Assembly: GCF_018417535.1 (NCBI RefSeq)
Contig: NZ_CP070977.1
Coordinates: forward strand, 2,976,001-3,040,000
Reading direction: 5' to 3'
Origin: Burkholderia pyrrocinia
GTDB lineage: Bacteria > Pseudomonadota > Gammaproteobacteria > Burkholderiales > Burkholderiaceae
DNA: 64,000 nucleotides
The notes beneath the pieces were generated by a model. It worked only from the letters and a program-made list of their open reading frames with translations. It ran no database searches and was not told where the DNA came from. Shown in pieces: positions 817 to 7,329 of the stretch (position 1 is the stretch's first letter; each line of letters starts with the position of its first letter). The position numbers and the translations under genes are program-made.

Positions 817-2487
817 TCAGTTGCTCGACGAGCACCCGCCGCAACTGCTCGAACTGCATGAGCTGGAACTGGAGCTGCATGAACTCGACGAACTGCAACT
901 CGACGACGAGCAGTTGCTGTCGGACGCGCTCGAACCGCCGCCGGTCCTCGCCGCCCCAACCGAGAGTGGCGGCGGCGCCAGCACGATGCCCGAGTACGCA
1001 GCCCACGCGGTACCGGCCATTGCGCCTGCACCGAACAGCGCGGCGGTCCACACCAGGTCGTCCGCCGCCCCGCGCTCACCATTGCCCGCGTCGGGCGTAC
1101 CGGCGGCATCCCGCACCACTCCGGCGTTGTGCACGGCACGCGCATCGTGCGAGATCCGGCGTGCAACGAGCGCCGCCCGTCCGGCGGACGTTGTCCCGCC
1201 CCGCCCGAAGCCCGTCAGACGCCGCACAAGAATCCGGTATGCGATCGCGAACGCCGCCATGCAAATGACGAGCAGCAGCACGGGTCGACCGCGACTCAGG
1301 CCGACCGCGAGTTTCGCGGCACCGGTGCCGAGCACGAGCAGCAAGATCGCGCGGGCGGCCAGGCGCGACACGCGCATCTCGCCGGGTGCCCAGAGCCAGC
1401 CCTGCGCGTGCAGCCCGTCGGCCAACTCTTGCGCATAACGCGCGAGCCGCTGGCGAAACACGCCGTAGCGCACTTCGCCGTCCGGCTGCTCGTTCAACCA
1501 AGAACAGTGGTCGTCATACGGGCCCGCGTGTTCCAGGTTGCCGATCTTCACATACCCGCCGTGTTTCGGGACGGTTCGCAACTCGATCGCGCCCGCATGC
1601 GCGAGCGACATCGTCACCACCTGCGCGAGCCGCGATTCGCCGCCGGTGAGAAAGGCGACCTCATCGGCCGTCAGGCCGTCGGACGTCTTGCGGGTGCGCC
1701 CACCCCAGCGCCGCCACCGGTACTCGATCCATTGCAGGCCCACGATCAGCAACAACGCGACAACGCAGGCCGGCACGTAGAACGCGAGAAACTGCGGCCC
1801 GGTGTAGTTCAGCACGTCGAAGTCCTGCGCCGACGCGCAGGTCGCGGCGACGCTCGCGGCGGCCGCGGGCCATACGAGTTTCGGCAGCCGGTTACGCCAG
1901 GACCTGCCGGCCGACGGGGGGGCCAGCGAATCCGGTTTCCCCGGCGCGCCCGCATCCGGCAGGTCCGGCTCCGGCAGGTCGGGCTCCGGCAGGTCGGGCT
2001 CCGGCGATCCGGGCTCCGCGTGCGAGCCGACGGGCCGCGGCCAGATCGACTCCGGCGGCTCGCTGCCGAACAGCCGCCGATAGCTGTCGAGCGTGTCGCG
2101 ATAGCGCTGCGCGTACACGGCGGCTTCGTCCGGCGCGCCCGTGCCCGGCATGTGATGCAGCCGCGCGCGCAGCACGCCGGCGCAGAAGACGTCCCAGTAT
2201 TCGAGTGTGTATTGCAGGTGGAAATGCCAGGCGGCATCGACCGCGACCGACGGCGTGACCGGATGCCCGGCCGCCTGCGCGAGAAACGCGAAGCGCTTGT
2301 ATTCGTCGATCACGGCCAGCGCGTGCGCGTGCGACCAGCCTTCGGCCTCGGCAAGGCGCCGGCTGTACGGCAGCGGCGCGTCAGGGTCGTCGGGGGAATA
2401 GGCTTGCAGGCGCACGAGCAGCGCCTGCTGCGCATCGTTCAGCGCGCGGGCCTCGACTGCGGTCGAGGTAGACGGGATGGCAGCCAT
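817..2487 (-). CDS. Membrane protein: GRDP-like N-terminus, TIGR04222-type region, Cys/Ser-rich tail
   Basis: A 556-residue protein if started at ATG 2487; a GTG at 2562 in the same frame would add 25 residues, and neither start has a clear ribosome binding site. Residues ~20-145 resemble glycine-rich-domain-protein-like regions, with the hallmark VDAAWHFHLQYTLEYW. A Pro/Glu/Asp linker with PEPDL repeats follows, then a region with several hydrophobic segments (about residues 230-520) resembling the TIGR04222 family, which is known for low-complexity Cys-containing C-termini. The tail fits: about 30 residues of almost only Ser with six Cys spaced C-x4-C-x5-C-x6-C-x4-C-x2-C, ending CGGCSSSN. 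The function of the family is unknown. A surface or modified-peptide role is speculation. The family assignment is from memory of motifs. Confidence 0.8.
   Translation of the reverse strand: MAAIPSTSTAVEARALNDAQQALLVRLQAYSPDDPDAPLPYSRRLAEAEGWSHAHALAVIDEYKRFAFLAQAAGHPVTPSVAVDAAWHFHLQYTLEYWDVFCAGVLRARLHHMPGTGAPDEAAVYAQRYRDTLDSYRRLFGSEPPESIWPRPVGSHAEPGSPEPDLPEPDLPEPDLPDAGAPGKPDSLAPPSAGRSWRNRLPKLVWPAAAASVAATCASAQDFDVLNYTGPQFLAFYVPACVVALLLIVGLQWIEYRWRRWGGRTRKTSDGLTADEVAFLTGGESRLAQVVTMSLAHAGAIELRTVPKHGGYVKIGNLEHAGPYDDHCSWLNEQPDGEVRYGVFRQRLARYAQELADGLHAQGWLWAPGEMRVSRLAARAILLLVLGTGAAKLAVGLSRGRPVLLLVICMAAFAIAYRILVRRLTGFGRGGTTSAGRAALVARRISHDARAVHNAGVVRDAAGTPDAGNGERGAADDLVWTAALFGAGAMAGTAWAAYSGIVLAPPPLSVGAARTGGGSSASDSNCSSSSCSSSSSCSSSSSSCSSSSCGGCSSSN
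1955..2005. repeat. 15-bp in-frame tandem repeat (PEPDL units)
   Basis: Three near-identical 15-bp units (1955-1969, 1970-1984, 1985-1999) and part of a fourth encode PEPDL repeats in the linker of the membrane protein. The unit is a multiple of three, so slippage would change linker length without shifting the frame. Confidence 0.8.
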
Positions 2488-3377
2488 CGGGAGTCGGCGC
2501 GATGCGCGGACGGCCGCCGCGATCGACGCTTGGAGTTGTCGTTGCGGGCAATTCTCGCACAACAGTGCAGCGGTGCGATGCCGGTTCGCCGGCCCTGCCC
2601 GAAGCCGTGCGATGCGACAGGCCCCGGAAGGGGGGCGCGGTCGATCCCCTGCAAGACGGGACGCTCGATAGCACCGCGCCGCGTCTCAATACGGTCGTCG
2701 CGACCGAAGGGTGGCTGCGCCGCCAAATGTGTCGGATGACCAGCGCAACACCTACTGGGTGAAGCTATACAAAACGCCGAAACTCCATAACCCAGGCGCG
2801 TAGCCGTCTAGGCGCGACCGTCGTTCGCGCCAAATACTGTCTTCGGAGTTTTATCAGCGCACCGCAACCCCTTACAAATCAATGCCTTGCGCAACTCGCA
2901 ATTTGCAAAACCAAGGCTAATTAAGGTCGATCAGCGCTACCCAAGCTCGTCCAAACTGTAATTTCACTGTAGTTGCGATAGTCGGAGCGAAACGGTTCAG
3001 CACGCCTCTTCGCTCACTGTTACACGCGTCTCGTCATCTCTGACAGGTGGCTACACGTCGATAGCACGTGCTACTGTCTGAGCAGATTTCGTCACAGGAA
3101 ATCTGCGTAGGATTCGCGTTTGTTTGGAGGTAGATACAGCCTCTCACGGCTGCCGCATGCTCGTATGCGACCCGGTGCCAATCTTGCCGACGGGAAAGCT
3201 TTGGCGCTCCTTGGCCACGTTGTTTCGCGCCAGCATTGTCGCGGCGTCTTCCTGATCAATAAGGTGAAAGCCGGGCTCCCTCCGCATGACGGTCAACGGT
3301 CACCCAGTAGCACTCGAGGGCGACATGGCGCCGTGTTGAGCGCCGTTCATCGCACCCCGACCTCTTTGGAGAATGAC
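2488..3377. other. 890-bp intergenic region, falling into AT-richer island DNA
   Basis: No supportable gene is seen here. From about 2730 the GC content drops clearly below that of the surrounding chromosome. A long frame beginning at 3120 runs into the small secreted protein at 3378, but its upstream part has no protein-like character. A perfect 12-bp palindrome TAGCACGTGCTA lies at 3062-3073, some 300 bp ahead of the gene at 3378, and could be a regulator site; nothing else supports that. Confidence 0.5.
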
Positions 3378-3632
3378 ATGAAGAAGAAGCTCACCGCCGC
3401 CCTGATCGCCTCGCTGTTCGCCACTGTTACGTACGCTCAGGCGCCCGGTTCCACCGCGCCTCCCCCGTCAAATTCGGCCTCCACCAATGTAGGTTTAGCG
3501 GAGTCCCCCTCTGCAACGCTCGGCACGACGCGCAGCGCCACCGAAGTGCACAAGCACAAGGTTAGCCATCACCGGAAAAAGCCGTTCATCCTTGACAAGG
3601 CGAACCCGGATGGTAAGTCGAGCCTGCAATAA
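3378..3632 (+). CDS. Small exported protein of unknown function
   Basis: An 84-residue protein. The start at 3378 is preceded by TTTGGAGAATGAC, giving GGAG at a suitable distance, and opens a classic signal peptide: MKKKLTAALIASLFATVTYA with an AxA-like cleavage region (TYA-QA) near residue 20. The mature ~64 residues are low complexity, first Pro/Ser/Thr/Ala-rich, then basic and His-rich (HKHKVSHHRKK), ending near NPDGKSSLQ. No domain is recognised. It is most likely periplasmic or secreted. It stands alone in AT-richer DNA, convergent with the paralog pair downstream. The signal peptide and ribosome binding site make it a believable gene; its role is unknown. Confidence 0.65.
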   Translation: MKKKLTAALIASLFATVTYAQAPGSTAPPPSNSASTNVGLAESPSATLGTTRSATEVHKHKVSHHRKKPFILDKANPDGKSSLQ

Positions 3633-3759
3633 CAGCCTCAGACCCATTAGAACCCTGCTTCGCGGAGTTCCCCCGATCAAGGCGAAGTGAGTCTTTGGCC
3701 TTCTCAATGGCGAAGACCATGCACGGGAACCTTCGATGACATGCCTCAGCTTGGCGTAT

Positions 3760-4437
3760 TCATCGTGACGGCATTAAATAGAACCTGTTCGCTGCAGTGC
3801 TGTACACCACATTCGCCTCGCTAGTACCGGCGTCATAAGTAAGCCGGAGTCGATCGGAGCGCACCTCGGGGCACACGGTGCCATTGATCTTGCACGACGA
3901 AAGAAATATCTCGACGACATGCTGTGGCTGGAAGAACGCTTGCATATTCCACGGCACATATGCCGCATTCGTCGCCGTGCGACTCTGTACTTTGTTGTTG
4001 ACGATGGCGCTCTGCGCCAGCCCAAAGGCGTAGATTTGATTCGGAACCTGATTCACGACGCTGTACACGTCGAGGGCAGTCCGTCCTGTCGAATCGAGCG
4101 CGTCGAAATGGCCGTTCCTGAAGCGATATTCGATCCCGGCAACGGCGGGCAGATCCGTGATCGCATTGATATGGATCGTTTCCGCCGCGCGGAGCGGGGT
4201 CGTCGTCATGTACACGAACCAGGCATCTTCGATAACGACCTTATTTGACTTTAAGGGCTTGAACACGACCCACGCGATCGGGTACTCACCGGGCGCTTCT
4301 GACGAGCGCGCGTCGCTTCCCGCGCTGCCAACTACGGATGAAGCGACTGGCCGCGCCAATGCGCAAGTCAAGCCGTCAGCGTAAATCTTTTCGAGTCCGC
4401 TTTCATCGAAGGCGACGTTGATGATGAATGGCGTCAT
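3760..4437 (-). CDS. Unknown protein, paralog B of an island tandem pair
   Basis: A 225-residue protein with no signal peptide and no transmembrane segment. ATG at 4437 is preceded by GGAG at a normal distance (GGAGCTCACC). It is clearly homologous to the product of the gene just upstream (4498-5211): both share an INV start, GLxxIYxxGL, a PxAWVxFxPLxxNxV block, YxTTTxLxxxxTI, GxxYxFxxGxF, an FGLAQ core followed by NN, NAxxVPxN and FLSSxxxNGxV. This copy carries a longer loop around residues 36-52 and two cysteines near the FLSSC segment. The even spread of short hydrophobic strands suggests a beta-rich soluble fold. I do not recognise the family. It lies 60 bp downstream of its paralog on the same strand, so cotranscription is likely. 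Confidence 0.75.
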   Translation of the reverse strand: MTPFIINVAFDESGLEKIYADGLTCALARPVASSVVGSAGSDARSSEAPGEYPIAWVVFKPLKSNKVVIEDAWFVYMTTTPLRAAETIHINAITDLPAVAGIEYRFRNGHFDALDSTGRTALDVYSVVNQVPNQIYAFGLAQSAIVNNKVQSRTATNAAYVPWNMQAFFQPQHVVEIFLSSCKINGTVCPEVRSDRLRLTYDAGTSEANVVYSTAANRFYLMPSR

Positions 4438-4497
4438 GGTGAGCTCCAGTCGTCGCCGCGCCGCATACAGTCACGGGCACGGCGACGAAATCGACCG

Positions 4498-5211
4498 TCA
4501 AGCTACGTGCAACCCCGAACGACCGCCTTCCCCAGCCACCTGAGCGGCAGCCAAGCTTCCGACAAAATCCTTCGAGCTTCGCAAGCCGGCTTTCTTCAGA
4601 TAGAACGTGTTCGTTTGGTCATTGAAGCCAACGTCCGCCTGCGGACTGGTACTGCTCAGTGTGATATTGAGGGCGTTACTCGCGACTGCGGCAATAACCG
4701 AACCGTTGTTGCTGTAGGACGAGAGGAACAGTGACAATTTCTCGAGCGGCGTGAACGTCGCATTCACGTTGTAAGGCACGGATACGGCATTCAGCGGCGC
4801 CGACGTCTGCACGTTGTTGATCACCACCGGCTGAGCAAGACCGAAGCTGAAGTTACCGGGCGTCTGCTGATTCCTCAGGTTGAACGTCCCCGGATCGCCT
4901 CCCTGTGCCTCGGTGAACCTCCCTCGCTCAAACGAGTAGATCCAGCCCGGCTGGATCTGCGCATCCGTTTGCGATGTCATTTTGATAGTCGCACCGGATT
5001 GGAGGGTCGTCGTCGTCGCGTACATCGTAAATTGCTCTTGCCACGTAACCTGGTTCTCATGCAGTGGCTGGAACGACACCCATGCAACTGGAAGGGAGCC
5101 GCCGCTAATCGGGTTCGAGACTACGCTCTTGACCAGCGTCACGTATAGGCCGCTGTCATAAATGGTGTCGAGTCCTTTGGTGCTTATCGAAACGTTAATC
5201 TGGAAGTTCAT
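4498..5211 (-). CDS. Unknown protein, paralog A of an island tandem pair
   Basis: A 237-residue protein, ATG 5211 with GGAG seven bases upstream (CGGAGATCAAA). It shares with the following gene the ordered blocks GLDTIYDSGL, LPVAWVSFQPLHENQV, YATTTTLQSGATI, NFSFGLAQ and LSLFLSSYSNNGSV. The body is Thr/Ser/Asn/Val-rich with alternating polar and hydrophobic residues, as in beta-sandwich or lectin-like proteins, but no family is recognised and no catalytic motif stands out. The last ~25 residues (after FYLKKAG) extend beyond its paralog. There is no signal peptide, so it is cytoplasmic unless released by lysis or a dedicated system. Base composition is AT-richer than the chromosomal average, which fits horizontal gain with the neighbouring integrase remnant and tRNA. 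Confidence 0.75.
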   Translation of the reverse strand: MNFQINVSISTKGLDTIYDSGLYVTLVKSVVSNPISGGSLPVAWVSFQPLHENQVTWQEQFTMYATTTTLQSGATIKMTSQTDAQIQPGWIYSFERGRFTEAQGGDPGTFNLRNQQTPGNFSFGLAQPVVINNVQTSAPLNAVSVPYNVNATFTPLEKLSLFLSSYSNNGSVIAAVASNALNITLSSTSPQADVGFNDQTNTFYLKKAGLRSSKDFVGSLAAAQVAGEGGRSGLHVA

Positions 5212-5296
5212 TTTGATCTCCGATATTTAAAATGACGATACAAAGACACTCAATCGACCAACATACAGCAACAACAAGCCGCGACTACGCACCCCA

Positions 5297-5506
5297 TCAC
5301 TCAACGTATTTACGCTCGAACGAATGAGCTACAATGCGCCAACCAATGCATTTATTTTCGAAGTAAATCACCACCGACCCCGAATACGAAAATAATCCAC
5401 AAACCAAAGTGTCACCGACAACAGAATCGCGACAACAATCATAAAACAGCTTATCACCTATCAACCATCCATTGGACGTGTAGACTTGATGGCATACCGA
5501 GCGCAC
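5297..5506 (-). CDS. Possible small protein (69 aa) upstream of the paralog pair
   Basis: An open frame from GTG 5506 to a stop at 5297, on the same strand and 85 bp upstream of paralog A. The translation looks more protein-like than chance (GWLIGDKLFYDCC, SVVIYFENKCIGWRIVAHSF, five Cys, ending FERKYVE), but there is no clear ribosome binding site, no ATG and no recognised domain. An in-frame stop just upstream fixes the maximum length. It may be a real short member of the same transcription unit or the decayed end of a larger gene. Confidence 0.3.
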   Translation of the reverse strand: MRSVCHQVYTSNGWLIGDKLFYDCCRDSVVGDTLVCGLFSYSGSVVIYFENKCIGWRIVAHSFERKYVE

Positions 5507-6620
5507 GTCAATGAGTATTCAATACGGACACGCTGCAACTGAGCGCCAGTGCATCCGGCACGTGCATCGCACATACGACAATAGATAACTAGTTGCCCGT
5601 TGTGACACTCAATAATGGTATTGCCGAATTTTCATACGCACGCGCATCTTCTCCGACACACCCTTTTCAAGCGATGGTCTATTGATTTTATCTGCCAGCC
5701 CCATCAAACAAAAAATCAATAATCTTTCAATCGCAAATTACCTCCAAGAATAGACCACGGAATGAGGCACGTAAACCTCAATCGATCAAACAGAATCCCT
5801 GACAGTCCAACATGAAAATCAACCCGAAAAAGTCATCAAAACAAATAATTGTTCAATAAAAACAAGCCCATGAATTCGATTCACAAATCAAACCATTTAA
5901 TAAAAAATTGCAAACCCTTACAACCGGCCGACTTCAATACCAAAATGATTAACAGGGTTGCAGCGCCGTGAATAAAATCGAAATGCCGGGGCTGTGTATC
6001 CAAGACGTATGAATCTGCAGTGAGTCCTCCTCCCCATCAACCTTCATGCGGCGGGTCCCTGGCAAATGGCGGACATGCGATCCGCCCTGACCAGCCTCGA
6101 TGACACTCATCCTCTGCATCCCAGGGAGCAACTAGTAACTTTCGGAGGGTGTCCGGCTATGAGGCCAGGACGAGCACCGGCTTTCCACATACGCCACTCG
6201 CGTGGCCGGCTGATACTCGGGGACAGGCTTTTACTGCACGAAGCCGAAATTGTGCGATCAGCCCATTGTCGAGGAAGACCCAAGGCAGAACAGGAAAGCA
6301 CGGAGACTGCATAACCACGGCGCATCAAAGTGCATAACAAAATCGCCCTGTCGATCGCCGGGCGGCCCGCAGCAGCCGGTGCATGCCTGCATAAGAACTG
6401 TTCATTTTTGCGGGCAGGTGGGGCGGGGGGCAACTGCGCGCACCGGGTCCGAATCGCCATCCCGGGGGCAGGGTCGGGCCCTTGGGTCGCCCCTCCGGCG
6501 CGTCAGGCGGCCCGCCACGGCCCTGCGGCGGGCTCGTCCGGCCCCTTTGGGGGTGCATCTAGGCGGCGGCCGCCCTGAGGTGCTCTAATCCGCCGAGGCC
6601 GCGCATGGGCGACAGACGTA
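5507..6620. other. Poor-coding island DNA with a sharp composition change
   Basis: No gene can be supported over about 1.1 kb. From 5507 to about 5950 the DNA is strongly AT-rich with A-runs on the + strand and short frames only. From about 6000 the GC rises, and 6400-6600 is extremely GC-rich. The short open frames in both strands here show no recognisable family. The step in composition suggests two different source sequences joined inside the island, consistent with decayed mobile DNA. Confidence 0.5.
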
Positions 6621-6621
6621 A

Positions 6622-6654
6622 AAAAGCCGCCGGCACCGAAGTGCCCGACGGCTT
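6622..6654 (-). terminator. Rho-independent terminator of a phage-gene remnant
   Basis: Read on the reverse strand, GCCGTCGGGCAC and GTGCCGGCGGC pair, with one mismatch per arm, around a short loop (TTCG), followed by a run of six T. It lies just after the stop of the reverse-strand fragment at 6681-6791, so a gene 3' end and its terminator have survived together. Confidence 0.75.
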
Positions 6655-6680
6655 TGCTGTGCCAGGTGTGCGCTCGGACG

Positions 6681-6791
6681 TCAGCCCTTCGGCATCTCAA
6701 AGTCGCTGAACCTCACGATCTCGATCCCGAGCCAGTCGTTCACCTCCCGGAGCCGCGCCTTCAGCGGTTCGATCTGTGGGTGAGCAGGCAT
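6681..6791 (-). pseudogene. 3'-terminal fragment of a reverse-strand (probably phage) gene
   Basis: A 36-residue open frame, ATG 6791 to TGA 6681, reads [20 protein letters not shown] and then [16 protein letters not shown]. It ends immediately before a good terminator, as a genuine gene 3' end would. The charged helical character and abrupt upstream loss of coding sense, where the integrase fragment overlaps on the other strand, suggest that only the C-terminus of a longer gene remains. The parent family is not recognised. It could alternatively be a very short intact gene. Confidence 0.4.
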
Positions 6792-6947
6792 GTGCAGCGC
6801 GGTACACCGTTACAGGTATTGAAGGAACTGGGTGGGTGGGAAACGCTGGAGATGGTGCAGCGCTACGCGCACCTGTCGGCTGACCACCTGGCGCATTGGG
6901 TCGCGCCACTGACGGCCGAGCCGGCACCGCGGTTAGCTGCAATTTAG
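6777..6947 (+). pseudogene. C-terminal fragment of a tyrosine-recombinase (phage integrase)
   Basis: The frame ending at 6947 reads [20 protein letters not shown], then [21 protein letters not shown]. This matches the end of tyrosine site-specific recombinases: the GTPLxxLxELGGW block and the catalytic tyrosine in RYAHL. The N-terminal and central parts, with the catalytic Arg and the R-H-x-x-R arrangement, are missing; upstream sequence in this frame is unrelated. It therefore cannot be an active integrase. It points toward the tRNA-Arg gene 55 bp away, the usual position of an island integrase next to its attachment site, so it marks an old insertion at this tRNA. Confidence 0.8.
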
Positions 6948-7001
6948 CTGCAATGAGTCTGTCCGACGAGGGAAGGAAACCGCTGAGAGCCTTACTAGGC
7001 T

Positions 7002-7077
7002 TGGCGCGCCCGGCTGGGATCGAACCAGCAACCCCTGCCTTCGGAGGGCAGTACTCTATCCATTGAGCTACGGGCGC
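7002..7077 (-). tRNA. tRNA-Arg (anticodon CCG)
   Basis: On the reverse strand a complete cloverleaf is present: acceptor GCGCCCG (7077-7071) pairing with CGGGCGC (7012-7006), D arm with AGCTCAATGGATAGAGT, anticodon stem CTGCC/GGCAG around loop CTCCGAA (anticodon CCG, decoding CGG) and T arm GGTTCGATCC. The discriminator is G at 7005 and CCA is encoded at 7004-7002. The 3' end faces the integrase fragment, so this gene is the likely integration site of the island to its left. Confidence 0.97.
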
Positions 7078-7329
7078 TTGTGACAGTGAAACGACCCCGA
7101 TATACAGGCCGCCCACGATTGGCAAGACGGCAAGGATACCCGGTTTCCCATGATGCGTCCACCTTGCCCGCCGAATCGCCGCCGGGCCGCGCTGCGTGCG
7201 GGTAAACACGCGCCATCGCGCCGCTCGCCGTCATGTAAACGTTCCGTCTATAATCGTCCGTGCTTCATTGGACTGCCATTTTGCCGTTGCACCGCGCTCA
7301 CAATTCCTATTCATGGAGACGAGGCAAGC

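Follow-up and report, generated by a model that had tools for sequence, protein, structure and literature searches.

A recurrent pair of paralogous genes from a family without a name in an insertion beside tRNA-Arg of Burkholderia pyrrocinia

Described paired operons and the A/B pair

Small soluble, beta-rich proteins encoded as two diverged paralogues in one operon are known from the PixA/AidA family (PF12306). In PMC9060813, bnr1 and aidA of Burkholderia cenocepacia were reported to form one operon and to count among the genes that change most in quorum-sensing mutants, and PixA was presented as a protein of inclusion bodies with a link to stationary phase; PMC10143992 reports an adjacent aidA controlled by SdiA in Photorhabdus. 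Here we describe a gene pair of similar organization in a stretch of 64,000 nucleotides of Burkholderia pyrrocinia (assembly GCF_018417535.1, contig NZ_CP070977.1, positions 2,976,001–3,040,000), referred to below as the window, from a genome of 8.54 Mb in three contigs. The pair consists of gene A (first gene; 4498–5211, minus strand; 237 aa) and its paralogue gene B (second gene; 3760–4437, minus strand; 225 aa), both located in an insertion beside a tRNA-Arg gene.

The PixA/AidA-like layout of two diverged paralogues, known here from gene order, was found in the window and at 14 other loci. PixA/AidA genes are patchy in Burkholderia, as A and B are, and tandem PixA/AidA matches were also found there. 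The conserved residues of PixA/AidA differ from those of A and B, and the two groups showed no sequence relation. Membership in PixA/AidA was rejected, as hhalign comparison of 14 PixA sequences gave a probability of 0.03% against the family alignment (A1; 43 rows including B of the window) and 0.28% against an alignment of a distant branch (A4; 42 aligned), and Pfam scans of A, B and members gave no match to PF12306. The PixA/AidA fold (PDB 4lzk) was not among the matches listed in the fold searches, which excludes nothing. Control of PixA/AidA is of LuxR type, adjacent or distant (PMC9060813, PMC10143992), whereas a regulator was not found alongside the window pair.

PUD-1 and PUD-2 of Caenorhabditis elegans are likewise two homologous soluble proteins and reportedly form a heterodimer. 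They are aegerolysin-like, and no aegerolysin model was matched in Pfam scans of 43 family and 42 distant-branch members. From the TssJ/SciN type VI lipoproteins A and B differ in lacking a lipoprotein signal and a sequence match; no hydrophobic N-terminus is present, the predicted models begin with the first beta strand, and the TssJ/SciN fold scores fell within the range of common sandwiches. In organization alone the A/B pair is a variant of the PixA/AidA-like paired operon; in sequence it falls into none of the families tested.

Recurrence and unequal conservation of the pair

Gene A lies upstream in the direction of transcription and is followed by B after a gap of 60 bp (4438–4497, minus strand), and both frames are intact. 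A GGAG ribosome-binding-like site was found before B (4444–4447) and, by eye, before A (5218–5221, minus strand); the short gap and the site before B suggest one transcript, and the pair is accordingly treated as a putative operon. In BLASTP, A and B showed 34% identity over 218 columns (117 bits, E 3e-37) and are thus paralogues, and A alone as query retrieved B at E 3.1e-29. A first-pass annotation of the window had described two adjacent open reading frames (ORFs) of 237 and 225 residues with shared blocks in the same order and neither a membrane segment nor a signal peptide. Lengths and coordinates were borne out, the blocks are visible in the BLASTP alignment, and no hydrophobic segment was detected in either protein (highest 19-residue mean hydropathy 1.06 for A and 1.09 for B) nor any signal peptide, as judged from hydropathy and by eye. 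Protein A contains the motif W57-x-E59-x-F61, and its beta domain is followed by a C-terminal extension; in B the three W-x-E-x-[Y/F] positions are I, D and W.

Two members of the family on the same strand were found at 15 loci in Burkholderia, other Proteobacteria, a planctomycete and a metagenome-assembled genome (MAG) of Eremiobacterota. The ten loci read first were all paired (the window, the Burkholderia genomes G034 and G068, Singulisphaera, the Eremiobacterota MAG, Methylobacter, three Rhizobium and Pseudohoeflea), and a wider search with a further alignment (A6) gave five new loci, all paired (G472, G497, G877, G859 and G813). In G813 the second member came to light only when the locus itself was read. 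These counts do not include G049 and G454, which contain at least three members each and in which first and second genes are not simply assignable, nor three unpaired cases that are broken, interrupted or partial: a remnant in G010, a fragment in G197 and a copy on an Alicyclobacillus plasmid. In the plasmid copy (L038, 5995–7926) the family gene is present in two pieces that flank an annotated IS200/IS605-type tnpB gene. The conserved pairing that the first-pass annotation proposed to look for in other genomes is therefore found, and at the 15 loci the first gene is the more constant of the two and the second the faster-changing.

First genes were closer to each other than second genes in 45 of 45 between-locus comparisons among the first ten loci, and the five new loci gave the same result in 10 of 10. 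Over all 15 loci this was the case in 102 of 105 comparisons (mean identity 38.9% for first and 26.3% for second genes), which are not independent, since the three Rhizobium loci and two of the Burkholderia loci are nearly identical copies. Within a locus, first and second gene showed 24–37% identity in eight of the ten loci read first. At the columns of W57, E59 and F61 of A, W-x-E-x-[Y/F] was present in 15/15 first genes and 1/15 second genes; the motif was spotted in the first ten loci, and in the five new loci the counts were 5/5 and 1/5. In the rows of A1, B of the window included, W was present in 42/43 and E in 40/43. Among relatives of A with C-terminal tails of at least 10 residues, 17/38 matched the pattern [FLYH][ASV]xR[LN] (shuffled mean 0.56, maximum 4), a count inflated by relatedness. 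The tail of A itself does not match the strict pattern, and the first genes of Rhizobium and Pseudohoeflea (207 aa) have no such tail.

The ratio of nonsynonymous to synonymous substitution (dN/dS, counting method) was below 1 in 10 of 11 comparisons, namely those giving a value, in line with the selection that had been assumed. It ranged from 0.02 to 0.18 for first genes (five comparisons; 0.16 for A of the window) and from 0.14 to 0.59 for second genes (four comparisons), and was 0.62 for two similar copies in G454. The values are rough, because saturation was reached in one second-gene comparison and dS exceeded 1 in four others. The duplication is not confined to the island, as the pair recurs in other lineages and the first/second label takes five changes on a tree of 25 members, in which long branches were flagged. 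On this sequence tree the pair likely arose by repeated duplication; a single origin of first and second genes may also apply.

Intact genes of one family, recurrent pairing in a constant order, asymmetric conservation, dN/dS below 1 and a mobile setting were observed, and the recurrence of a steady and a fast-changing partner in distant bacteria suggests from sequence a joint action of the two proteins. A first gene that changes less than the second at the other paired loci is in keeping with the hetero-oligomer considered in the first-pass annotation, and an A:B hetero-oligomer in which A has the conserved site and B is the diverging partner is our tentative reading, a serious possibility that falls a little short of probable. 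A and B would then be two subunits of one cytoplasmic, island-borne two-gene cassette, presumably co-transcribed, and both are predicted to form a beta-sandwich with an N-terminal helix. A would be the constant subunit, with the W-x-E-x-[Y/F] site and a C-terminal tail as in many close relatives, and B a diverged copy that lost the site and changes faster. A might provide the conserved binding site for a ligand, and B might contact A to adapt or cap the assembly. By analogy with the unrelated PixA/AidA operon pairs, production could take place on demand under a transcriptional regulator.

Several observations weigh against a joint function of A and B. Adjacency may merely trace duplication: the five label changes compare with 7.0 for shuffled labels (52/500 as low), and A of Singulisphaera groups with its own B (94/86). 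The 15 loci are not all independent, with first genes 96–99% identical among the three Rhizobium loci and 87% between G034 and G068, and the same near copies recur among the 105 comparisons. The second gene of G497 is the sole one to retain W-x-E-x-[Y/F], the comparison of B of the window with B of G034 gave the highest dN/dS between genomes (0.59), and the distant-branch gene was solitary in the three loci read (G008, G022 and Aminobacter). In the three Rhizobium loci an ORF of 80 residues lies between first and second gene. As to expression, no regulator was recognized in the insertion, in which the ORFs at 6654–6947 and 3120–3632 were scanned, and a promoter consensus scan gave 2 promoter-like sites compared to 2.0 by chance, neither on the strand of A.

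The 80-residue ORF of Rhizobium (L015, 8657–8899; L037, 6657–6899; the same stretch of L014) is conserved. The L037 copy gave no Pfam match, and a role as third component is possible.

Some of these observations also suit proteins that act separately, with B a duplicate that has another ligand and adjacency resulting from tandem duplication only. Possible repeated duplication on the tree, the low identity between first and second genes within several loci and the multi-copy loci G049 and G454 agree with this, while neither gene order nor the direction of asymmetry varies across the 15 loci and, among loci read, paired ones far exceed unpaired intact ones; we consider separate action rather unlikely, if far from negligible. 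A broader form of the hetero-oligomer reading is speculative and, as a whole, unlikely: a widespread constant/variable two-subunit recognition system, in which a conserved beta-sandwich subunit bearing W-x-E-x-Y and a fast-diverging, repeatedly duplicated, site-losing paralogue would form lineage-specific complexes, carried on mobile DNA and locally regulated, for contact with other organisms. A hetero-oligomer would predict that the two paralogues meet, with the named motif in one and lost in the other. The discovery of such a complex and of a ligand would give a function to many 'hypothetical proteins' from bacteria of soils and hosts, and would provide a second, unrelated case of a PixA/AidA-like paired operon.

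A family absent from the searched libraries

Searches of A and B against Pfam, NCBIfam, PHROGs, PADLOC and PDB sequences gave no significant match. In Pfam, B had no match and A two matches, both far under the cut-off; NCBIfam returned no match to either; among PDB sequences each had one chance-level match (E about 0.8). Confident beta-rich models were predicted for both proteins, and no Foldseek match had E ≤ 0.001, either with A in PDB and viral models or with B in PDB. The best fold match of B had E 5.6e-3, probability 0.14 and TM 0.15, and the fold scores of the models were all within the range of common sandwiches. The assignment to an unrecognized family is supported by the sequence searches.

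Gene A as query found 45 proteins including itself, with named relatives in Burkholderia, Pendulispora, Singulisphaera, Sorangium and Eremiobacteraeota and Pseudolabrys MAGs; the nearest named homologue is from Burkholderia ubonensis (83%). B as query in the large protein set found itself alone, and relatives of second genes were therefore taken from genome searches. A contig scan of the genomes with A alone confirmed nothing, and the same scan with A1 gave six loci. A further alignment, A3, matched A1 at E 3e-72; both contain B of the window and are not independent. Pfam scans of the 43 members gave scattered single matches (best E 0.0013 in one member). No relatives were found in phage records and none were confirmed in viral contigs, and no paper on the pair's family was recognized in the literature, in which sequences are not searchable. 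An anti-phage defence role was rejected as a candidate, as A and B had no PADLOC match and a weak JetB match belonged to a distant-branch protein.

The distant branch comprises at least 109 proteins, from the best 7993 candidates scored, including proteins from Pseudomonas, Lentzea, Microcoleus and a Lachnospiraceae MAG. Its homology to the pair's family extends over the domain, with an hhalign probability of 97.2% (E 3.2e-11, 185 columns). Its members are 'hypothetical proteins' with an LCFAKKVGD...NVVWQS block, of a family without name; they differ from the pair's family in often having an extra N-terminal domain and in showing W-T-P-x-Y where the latter has W-x-E-x-Y. Pfam scans of 42 of them gave six scattered matches (best E 0.006), and the distant-branch profile gave one weak match in the 369 genomes of the class.

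Family matches were present in 6/61 relatives, 6/65 genomes of the genus, 3/369 of the class and 6/398 of the phylum, as well as in 1/3 genomes of the taxonomic family of G049 and 3/59 of that of G454, which shows the family to be rare and patchy. The matches in the genus were pairs in the window genome, G034 and G068, the remnant in G010 and distant-branch genes in G008 and G022. Two homes were detected within the genus, the tRNA-Arg insertion of the window and a site elsewhere at which the pairs of G034 and G068 and the pieces of G010 have the same flanks. On the sequence evidence, the pair belongs to a genuine, mostly paired family, which has members in several phyla and no name in the libraries searched.

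The first-pass annotation had also suggested a toxin, lectin or storage-like protein, and any of these roles is conceivable. A released two-part lectin or membrane-binding factor directed against other organisms appears distinctly unlikely, since A and B have no secretion signal, lectin and aegerolysin families were unmatched when 43 family and 42 distant-branch members were scanned against Pfam, and all fold scores lay in the range of common sandwiches. Proteins made in bulk as inclusions or reserve would suit the absence of a signal peptide and the behaviour described for PixA, an inclusion body protein tied to stationary phase (PMC9060813); we regard this as very unlikely, since a conserved motif and ordered blocks are unexpected of a mere reserve and no special amino-acid store is evident in A or B.

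Insertion beside tRNA-Arg and neighbouring genes

The insertion carrying the pair spans 2639–6975 and is missing from the relatives G035 and G078, in which the match to the window stops at 2638 and resumes at 6976, the two parts being 104 bases apart; in G008 the missing stretch starts at 2584, with matches to 2583 and from 6976 and 61 bases between. Its guanine plus cytosine (GC) content is 55.8%, compared to 68.1% for the whole window. The tRNA-Arg(ccg) gene (7002–7077, minus strand) faces the insertion with its 3' end and was the only RNA element detected over 2500–7200. The first-pass annotation had placed the pair in AT-rich DNA beside a tRNA with an integrase remnant. The low GC content and the tRNA-Arg were confirmed, and the most AT-rich part proved to be a gene-poor stretch upstream of A (5212–6060; 43.5% GC) and not the pair itself (A 55.7%, B 56.3%). 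The end of Phage_integrase was indeed matched by a fragment at 6654–6947 (plus strand), over the last 31 positions of the model only, and weakly so (E 1.1e-4; 22.5 bits, cut-off 27.1).

A possible left-end remnant of the tRNA-end repeat is present at 2838–2848 (plus strand), which agrees in 10/11 bases with 7036–7046 and is the sole other place in the window at this level of likeness. An island in G063 contains a full, perfect 46-bp repeat beside DNA similar to window 2837–2971, and second copies of the tRNA-Arg(ccg) end were found kilobases away in several genomes of the genus, which together identify this tRNA as a recurrent integration site in the genus. The tRNA/cytochrome flank was matched in 65/65 genomes of the genus, weakly in G032. 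A tRNA was found at 2 of 11 other family loci scanned, so that association with tRNA is not general.

With the integrase a fragment and the second repeat an 11-base trace, the element looks decayed, and the pair is intact. The annotation had named frame disruption in close relatives as evidence against its reading; it was found in one relative, in the broken remnant of G010, and the pairs of G034 and G068 are intact. The integrase fragment, the repeat trace, the G010 remnant and the dN/dS of 0.59 for B could be read to mean that in the window genome the pair is carried along by a decaying island and no longer has a function. This is very unlikely in view of the intact frames, the ribosome-binding-like sites, a GC content in the two frames of 0.71 and 0.69 at third codon positions compared with 0.46 at second positions, and the dN/dS of 0.16 for A.

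Regulator genes of several types were found near family members elsewhere. An AraC-type gene adjoins members in L014 and L016 and, by similarity, in L037; a Crp-type regulator lies beside the pair in G472, a STAND protein with a DNA-binding domain in G877 and a response regulator in G859, and a helix-turn-helix/AAA/TPR protein is encoded two genes from the pair in G813. The distant-branch gene of G008 has a LuxR-type neighbour, as does, by similarity, that of G022. Near the window pair no LuxR-type gene was recognized, and the 900 bases upstream of A contained no lux/cep-like box when up to one mismatch was allowed.

Further genes were noted in and around the insertion. Within the ORF at 3120–3632, an ORF of about 84 residues (3378–3632, plus strand) has an apparent N-terminal signal peptide, as judged by eye (MKKKLTAALIASLFATVTYAQ), and only a chance-level Pfam match. 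Just left of the insertion, a protein of 581 residues (817–2562, minus strand) with a long Cys/Ser-rich tail at its end had no Pfam match above the cut-off. In a search of a plasmid collection with 3632–6976 the right part alone was matched: window 6305–6775 showed 75% identity to a Burkholderia multivorans replicon without the pair. At other loci, the three Rhizobium loci (L014, L015 and L037) share a gene in the same position, upstream of the one of AraC type, for a protein of 1349 residues with AMP-binding, carrier and hexapeptide domains (L037 copy scanned), and an Evf-like gene (L013, 5560–6369; PF18270, E 2.1e-30) was found once, 2.8 kb downstream of the Methylobacter pair.
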